A stretch of DNA of 45,606 nt from Asticcacaulis sp. (lineage in GTDB: Bacteria > Pseudomonadota > Alphaproteobacteria > Caulobacterales > Caulobacteraceae), in NCBI RefSeq assembly GCF_027484505.1, contig NZ_JAIXSV010000125.1, forward strand, positions 1-45,606, in the 5' to 3' direction. The translations under genes and the position numbers were made by a program. Shown piece after piece: positions 1,837 to 2,146 of the stretch. The stretch's first letter is position 1. Each line of letters starts with the position of its first letter. The notes below the pieces were generated by a model. That model searched no databases. It was not told the origin of the DNA and saw nothing but the letters and a program-made list of their open reading frames with translations.

Positions 1837-1903
1837 AGGTCACGTCTCCTGCGTCAAAAAAGTTTGGCGGGAGGCGCGAGGTTTTGGGTTTTCTGTGAAA
1901 CCG

Positions 1904-1987
1904 GCCCCGCGCATTCCGCGGGGCTTCGTCCAGATGCCTTGGCTTACACCGTCAGCACGACCGGACCGGCCCCGCGAAGCGGGTCGG
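1904..1987 (-). promoter_or_regulatory. Putative ribosome-mediated attenuator in the asd leader
   Basis: Reading the minus strand towards asd there are four GC-rich segments: 1 (1987-1979, ccgacccgc), 2 (1976-1969, cgcggggc), 3 (1924-1917, gccccgcg) and 4 (1911-1904, cgcggggc). Segment 1 pairs with 2 around a TTC loop with one bulge. Segment 2 pairs perfectly with 3 over 8 bp. Segment 3 pairs perfectly with 4 over 8 bp around a 5-base loop. 1:2 plus 3:4 therefore competes with 2:3, as in classical attenuators. Segment 1 lies inside the codons of the threonine-rich leader frame. The 3:4 hairpin is followed only by CCGGTTTCA, not a good U-tract, so termination would be weak or Rho-assisted, or control could act another way. 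The structure is visible; the function is inferred. Confidence 0.5.
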
Positions 1988-2014
1988 CTTGGTAGTGGCT
2001 TTGGTGGTCGTCAT
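1952..2014 (-). CDS. Putative threonine-rich leader peptide of asd
   Basis: This frame of 20 codons (23 if read from the in-frame ATG at 2023) starts ATG ACG ACC ACC and encodes MTTTKATTKPTRFAGPVRSC. Six of the 20 residues are threonine and three are lysine, and both amino acids are end products of the pathway served by asd. It ends with TGA at 1954-1952, about 115 bases before the asd start. Codons 10-12 coincide with pairing segment 1 of the hairpin set, so a ribosome stalled at the Thr codons 7-8 would cover that segment. No convincing Shine-Dalgarno sequence precedes either ATG, which is the main weakness. Too short for any family assignment. Confidence 0.45.
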   Translation of the reverse strand: MTTTKATTKPTRFAGPVRSC

Positions 2015-2146
2015 CTGGAACATGAAAGCGGCTTTACCGGGAATGACGGGTTTTGTAAACCGCTCTTATACCTCTCCGGTTTATGGGGAGAGGGCGCAGG
2101 CCCCGATCTTGCTTAAGAAAAGCGAAACCATATGAGGTGTCCCATC

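Follow-up and report, generated by a model that had tools for sequence, protein, structure and literature searches.

A candidate leader-peptide attenuator of asd in Asticcacaulis sp. that may relay ribosome stalling to translation initiation

Results

An attenuator-like leader upstream of asd

The asd gene of Asticcacaulis sp. is very probably controlled by a leader-peptide attenuator, which we identified in a stretch of 45,606 nucleotides (the window, i.e., the whole stretch of DNA that was analysed) and followed into related genomes. We give a probability of about 0.6 to the whole reading, in which a ribosome-sensing attenuator of asd relays its state to translation, and initiation of translation is the main output that we somewhat favour for the window itself. 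Comparison of sequences establishes a leader frame, its Thr, Lys, Ile and Met codons, a predicted promoter, and five helices (1:2, 2:3, 3:4, 4:5 and 5:6), of which each has a segment in common with its neighbors. An earlier sequence-only reading of this DNA had proposed a ribosome-sensing asd attenuator of trp/thr-type geometry, and this proposal is well supported by the frame, the covariation and the promoter. The features are as follows (coordinates are those of the window).

784..1836, minus strand: asd, the regulated gene in this reading, aspartate-semialdehyde dehydrogenase (NCBIfam PRK14874 and TIGR01296, above cut-off)
1842..1849, minus strand: segment 6, GGAGACGT, contains the asd Shine-Dalgarno GGAG
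1870..1881, minus strand: segment 5, CCTCGCGCCTCC, pairs with segment 4 or with the asd Shine-Dalgarno
1904..1912, minus strand: segment 4, GCGCGGGGC, can pair with either 3 or 5; lacks a U-run behind it
1917..1924, minus strand: segment 3, GCCCCGCG, can pair with either 2 or 4
1969..1976, minus strand: segment 2, CGCGGGGC, can pair with either 1 or 3
1979..1983, minus strand: segment 1, CCCGC, pairs with 2
1952..2023, minus strand: leader frame, MFQMTTTKATTKPTRFAGPVRSC, 23 codons plus stop (open in 29/29 relatives; frame test below)
2031..2036, minus strand: -10-like box TAAAGC, separated by 17 nt from the -35 box and by 7 nt from the leader ATG
2054..2059, minus strand: -35-like box TTTACA (in 73/78 loci, TT[TG]AC lies at -40..-32 relative to the leader start)

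The 1:2 helix joins CCCGC (1983-1979) with GCGGG (1975-1971), and the 2:3 and 3:4 helices, which have segment 3 in common, are each perfect over 8 bp; the mutually exclusive 1:2, 2:3 and 3:4 pairings described from the sequence alone are thus present in the window. The 4:5 helix has 8 bp including one G-U, and the 5:6 helix has seven of eight pairs (one of them G-U) plus one C-A mismatch. The leader of the window folds moderately better than its shuffles (z of -2.2 over a stretch of 204 nt, -3.0 over one of 159 nt); a moderate z alone is weak evidence, so the decision was left to the relatives. Rfam at E 1 gave seven matches in window positions 1-4000, all below the gathering score and none of them an amino-acid leader.

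The same genome has a second asd on another contig (L002, contig C105), 48% identical to the asd of the window, which does not match the leader model; the sole strong match to the model in this genome is the one in the window (E 5.5e-16; the next has E 0.3). Adjoining the leader is a divergent frame (2132-2632, plus strand), by eye a pentapeptide-repeat protein with a signal peptide. Between it and the frame at 2762-4567 (minus strand; by eye an aspartyl-tRNA synthetase gene) lies a strong inverted repeat with a T-run (2639-2765) that has several sub-threshold Rfam matches, so hairpin-plus-T-run sites do occur in this genome.

The leader frame and its promoter in related loci

On the minus strand, upstream of asd, the leader frame runs from an ATG at 2023 to a stop codon at 1954-1952. 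The 20-codon frame noticed earlier corresponds to MTTTKATTKPTRFAGPVRSC, read from an internal ATG at 2014; its six Thr codons were borne out, while its Lys codons number two and not the three that had been counted. We rejected the start at 2014, since 2023 is the position that is conserved in relatives together with the promoter. A protein search (E 1e-100) of 119 genomes sampled from the family found this asd in 29 (own genome included), and all 29 carry the segments and a leader frame that is open for 23-26 codons from the aligned start (27 ATG, 2 GTG). Leader starts of relatives were set by aligned position, replacing longest-frame calling, which was dropped after it had misplaced the start in L019 and L023 and returned no start for L007 or L015.

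These 29 close relatives are too conserved for covariation among them to say much, so diverged loci were sought. The resulting alignment, A4, contains 83 loci (82 distinct) fitted to 1:2, 3:4 and 5:6; model R1 was built from 26 loci, and model R2, which contains 5:6 and not 4:5, from 83 loci. Left out of A4 were weak model matches above E 0.001, loci of genomes already included, L081-L088 (without a visible attenuator), L090 (ambiguous), L099 and L091. In L099 (genome G263) the element is cut short and joined to asd, with the leader ending after segment 3 and running into asd codons, which resembles a deletion or a misassembly; in L091 (genome G114) the element occurs a second time, in a form that looks decayed and has no asd match beside it.

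For the frame test we used 77 of the 83 A4 rows (five hisS rows and one dapA row were omitted). Thr, Lys, Ile and Met make up 61% of the 13 codons around model position 1 in the leader frame, as compared to 12% and 3% in the other two frames, and the leader frame is the richest in these codons in 77/77 rows. None of the 77 rows contains a stop in the leader frame, against 53 and 21 rows in the other frames, and in the asd genes themselves 12.5% of the codons belong to these four amino acids. By these counts the leader frame looks coding. The codon signal is broader than the threonine of the earlier suggestion and includes Lys, Ile and Met as well. Asd acts in the steps that the synthesis of Lys, Met, Thr and Ile has in common, and the codon mix of the leader fits this pathway. 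Ile is written as ATT in 107/142 leader codons (153/1394 in asd genes) and Lys as AAA in 141/190 (116/990 in asd genes), counts for which the leader start was picked partly by codon content and L244 was taken as asd, though it is too short to show the gene. Such rare codons could give the sensor greater sensitivity, or may merely prevent unwanted GC pairing in the RNA.

An in-frame leader start was obtained for 78 of the 83 A4 loci, and 73 of these have TT[TG]AC at -40..-32, a motif that occurs at this place in 1.1% of shuffled upstream regions. A hexamer starting with TA follows 17 nt after it in 71/73 loci (17 was the first spacing tried, and TA was the sole requirement on the hexamer), and the -10-like hexamer ends 7-8 nt before the start codon in 63/72 loci. 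Transcription is expected to start at, or a few nucleotides before, the leader ATG, and since the predicted promoter adjoins the start codon, the leader peptide is probably leaderless. That the peptide has no clear Shine-Dalgarno had been seen as a weak point; the absence is real, and a leaderless start would account for it. The refutation named beforehand, a transcription start downstream of 1950, is contradicted by the predicted promoter, which lies upstream of the leader. Leaderless transcripts are known from Alphaproteobacteria: excerpts of PMC4117421 report 375 leaderless mRNAs in C. crescentus, and excerpts of PMC10117765 describe trpL of S. meliloti as leaderless.

Compensatory changes in the helices

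Among the relatives the frame and the stems are kept (29/29) and, in A4, the stems covary, which is the outcome that the sequence-only reading had looked to for support. For 1:2, 3:4 and 5:6, 94.3% of the alignment cells are paired, double changes occur in 12/20 pairs (in 8/8 pairs of 5:6), and the covariation score is 0.148, as compared to 0.083 for shuffled alignments (0/500 as high) and at most 0.045 for slid pairings; the fitting of A4 to these three helices favours their count. The 2:3 and 4:5 helices lie outside that model, and for them 95.1% of the cells are paired, double changes occur in 6/16 pairs, and the score is 0.119 (0.093 shuffled, 0/500 as high; slid at most 0.060), with relatedness among the sequences inflating all of these shuffle tests and making the controls too generous. 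Swapping partners among 33 diverged loci weakens 2:3, 3:4, 4:5 and 5:6, and 0/5000 permutations were as good as the real partners.

Single loci, compared by eye, show the same. In L074-L077, segments 2, 3 and 4 are altered together (to GCGGGACG, CGTCCC and GCGGGACG, respectively); in L078, segments 4, 5 and 6 read GATGCGGGG, CCCCGCATCTC and GGAGATGC, and both 4:5 and 5:6 can still pair; in L239, a hisS leader, a change in segment 4 is matched by a change in segment 5. The half of segment 5 that is rich in C takes no part in 5:6, yet it is conserved opposite segment 4.

Terminator or Shine-Dalgarno clamp

Transcription ending at the 3:4 hairpin, the output proposed earlier, is unsupported in the window. 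No terminator-like site was called in window positions 1700-2300, and only 3 T fall within the 9 nt after 3:4, so the poor U-tract that had been named as a weak point is real. At least five T in the 8 nt after 3:4 are found in 9/83 A4 loci, leaving 74/83, the window included, without a U-run; among 18 asd and thrS loci of other orders, 9 have it (one of the 18, L127, was unparsed). Because the U-run was looked for and is absent, we do not file the element as a transcription attenuator, though it would work like trp/thr attenuation. What is conserved instead is a relay, 4:5 versus 5:6, onto the asd Shine-Dalgarno, and most loci share a predicted clamp on the downstream Shine-Dalgarno.

The difference in the unpaired probability of the Shine-Dalgarno was near null (0.23 versus 0.20 over the 83 loci, 0.20 versus 0.20 in the window), after which the energy needed to open five Shine-Dalgarno bases replaced it as the read-out and a shuffled-segment control was added. 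Over the 83 loci, opening is predicted to cost 7.2 kcal/mol when segment 4 is taken, 4.7 kcal/mol when it is free and 4.6 kcal/mol with a shuffled leader; the cost with 4 taken exceeds that with 4 free in 79/83 loci (by more than 1 kcal/mol in 59) and exceeds the shuffled-leader cost, again, in 79/83. The window gives 9.1 kcal/mol with 4 taken and 3.7 kcal/mol with a shuffled leader. Forty-seven loci outside both models gave similar figures (6.6 kcal/mol with 4 taken, 4.0 free and 4.1 with a shuffled leader; 4 taken higher, and above the shuffled-leader cost, in 43/47); these loci were found with R2 (49 were given, L241 and L244 were skipped, and L240 was not given), and their hairpins and Shine-Dalgarno sites were picked by a script, some of them wrongly by the look of it (L136, L137 and L143, for example).

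With a shuffled segment 4 the opening cost is 5.7 kcal/mol (83 loci) and 5.6 kcal/mol (47 loci), and a locus's own segment 4 opens the clamp better than a shuffled one in 67/83 and 38/47 loci. In the window it does so worse (6.4 versus 5.0 kcal/mol; 9.1 with 4 taken), and a 4-bp CTCC:GGAG stem over the Shine-Dalgarno persists when 4:5 has formed. Equilibrium folding from segment 2 onward, with segment 1 removed, did not free the Shine-Dalgarno either: as compared to read-through, its unpaired probability was higher by 0.1 in 11/83 loci and lower in 13. According to these foldings the switch would need co-transcriptional folding and looks graded: in the model the clamp is loosened, not removed, and the choice of 2:3 must fall during RNA synthesis, as in known attenuators.

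Occurrence before other genes and in other orders

At E 0.01, R1 has matches in 120/390 genomes of the family, spanning 7/22 genera, and at E 0.1 in 41/249 genomes of the order; 12/25 genomes of the window's own genus match, so not every relative has the element. R2 has matches in 161/390 family genomes at E 0.05 and in 21/385 class genomes at E 0.01 (own genome included). Twenty weak or second R1 matches comprise 7 loci before asd, 2 before hisS, 1 before dapA and 10 that are not attenuators or are ambiguous, and another 20 model-matched loci comprise 17 before asd and 3 before hisS. Out of 22 new loci from the class, 11 lie before asd and 7 before thrS, and the rest (L133, L138, L140 and L141) stand before another gene, before nothing recognised, or were unread; 20 further family loci include 15 before hisS, 3 before asd, and two (L240 and L244) without a gene match. 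NCBIfam confirmed the gene in every protein tested (asd 2, hisS 2, thrS 5, dapA 1).

The codons follow the gene. Leaders at the 20 hisS loci are rich in His (MTRIAHHHGHHHHPTRAGS is an example), which takes 42% of codons 2-16 (20 distinct leaders), Thr takes 42% of the same codons in the seven thrS leaders, and the sole dapA locus has the leader MSAAVANTAKKPSRLPG; for the two percentages, too, the leader start was picked partly by codon content. Rfam at E 0.01 on twelve relatives gave one match, to CC3513, an sRNA family of Caulobacter; it scores 38 bits, slightly short of the gathering score of 40, and lies at 446-508 (minus strand) of L092, antisense to the start of a hisS leader.

R2 matches 21 of 24 non-actinobacterial asd loci at E 0.0051 or better (the exceptions are L154, L158 and L162) and 0/56 actinobacterial asd loci at E 0.01; 23 of the 24 carry alphaproteobacterial names and one is named only bacterium, and eight of them (L145, L146, L148, L152, L153, L157, L161 and L163) are apparently already in the alignment. 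The element, at first framed as a device of Caulobacterales, is not confined to that order, the scaffold standing also before asd and thrS in other orders. Among L094-L105 and L125-L143 it precedes two distant kinds of asd, with an identity of about 40-45% between them; perhaps the asd gene was exchanged while the regulator stayed in place, or else the regulator moved.

Discussion

In the mechanism that we propose, translation of the leader would begin at the 5' end of the mRNA. A shortage of charged tRNA for Thr, Lys, Ile or Met would make the ribosome stall around codons 10-12 and cover segment 1, so that 2:3 forms and segment 4 is left free to pair with 5, the 5:6 helix over the Shine-Dalgarno is loosened, and asd is translated. 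With plentiful amino acids, the ribosome would read on to the stop codon, which lies about 15 nt beyond segment 2; 3:4 would then form, segment 5 would clamp the Shine-Dalgarno (5:6), and translation of asd would fall, perhaps followed by Rho-dependent polarity. In those relatives with a U-run after 3:4, this hairpin could end transcription too.

The alternative that we take most seriously, though we hold it to be clearly the less probable one, is classical transcription attenuation alone, in which 3:4, for all its poor U-tract, stops RNA polymerase by itself or with Rho or NusG and 5:6 is a side feature. The 1:2, 2:3 and 3:4 geometry is indeed the classical one, U-runs follow 3:4 in half of the asd/thrS loci of other orders (9/18, and 9/83 in A4), and the predicted release of the Shine-Dalgarno is partial, least of all in the window. 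However, 74/83 A4 loci including the window lack the U-run, segments 5 and 6 are conserved and covary, and it is opposite segment 4 that the half of segment 5 unused in 5:6 is kept. We hold it to be improbable that 5:6 is an independent ribosome-binding-site structure (a thermometer or the target of another regulator) to which the leader peptide is unrelated: in the window, folding predicts 5:6 even when no other segment is present, but segment 5 also keeps its pairing with 4, freeing 4 lowers the opening cost in 79/83 loci, and thrS and hisS are preceded by the same arrangement, with leader codons to match. As for a chance frame with chance hairpins in GC-rich DNA, folding of this one sequence lies just 2-3 standard deviations above its shuffles, as chance might allow; nevertheless, the frame and the hairpins are kept in many genera and several orders, and the model matches 21/24 asd loci of the alphaproteobacterial type against 0/56 actinobacterial ones at E 0.01, and we regard chance as hardly credible.

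Several known systems resemble parts of the relaying attenuator that we favour. The thr operon attenuator of E. coli (thrL) controls thrABC and ends in a U-run terminator. In E. coli and relatives, thrL shares with the asd system a short leader peptide (of Thr and Ile codons), mutually exclusive hairpins and a pathway of the aspartate family, whereas the asd system would control asd, adds Lys and Met codons and a proposed Shine-Dalgarno relay, and in the window lacks the U-run; the Rfam family Thr_leader has no match in window positions 1-4000 at E 1. In translational attenuators of the erm type, which sense antibiotics, a ribosome stalled on the leader rearranges the hairpins and frees a downstream Shine-Dalgarno. 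The asd leader would respond to amino-acid shortage instead, and its proposed relay is preceded by a four-segment attenuator of the classical kind. T-boxes sense tRNA directly and, unlike the asd system, have no leader peptide. As is proposed for the asd system, though, the translational T-boxes of actinobacterial ileS exert amino-acid control by way of a Shine-Dalgarno sequestering hairpin and its anti-sequestor (excerpts of PMC1262725), and leaders of hisS and hisZ are described for Bacillus in parts of PMC2965389.

Another such system is trpL of S. meliloti, an alphaproteobacterial attenuator whose leader peptide is leaderless, as that of asd probably is; as the excerpts of PMC10117765 present it, it differs in having Trp codons before trpE and in being a transcription attenuator that yields an sRNA. 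The same excerpts already suggest SEP5 of S. meliloti as a possible Thr/Lys leader peptide, which has six Thr and three Lys codons and lies in the 5' UTR of a gene that the authors call aspartate dehydrogenase, with no RNA switch described in those passages (PMC10117765). SEP5 aside, the literature that was searched, part of it in excerpt, yielded no leader attenuators of asd, thrS or hisS in Alphaproteobacteria, and novelty is not certain. Vitreschak et al. (2004) reportedly named ilvIH, not asd, for Alphaproteobacteria.

We consider the odds slightly better than even that these loci represent a modular six-segment scaffold of Alphaproteobacteria with a leaderless peptide, which is recoded for each gene (asd, thrS, hisS and dapA) and relays stalling to the Shine-Dalgarno; its U-run would depend on the lineage, so that the family would span transcriptional, dual and purely translational control. 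If so, amino-acid attenuation in GC-rich bacteria can act via translation, with one scaffold recoded per gene, and the evolution of attenuators could be studied along a natural gradation that these loci would provide, with transcriptional control at one end, translational control at the other and dual control between them. The finding would also point to a kind of leader peptide that, having no Shine-Dalgarno, tends to escape annotation, and it would lead one to expect that asd, thrS and hisS are under such regulation in Caulobacter, among other organisms.
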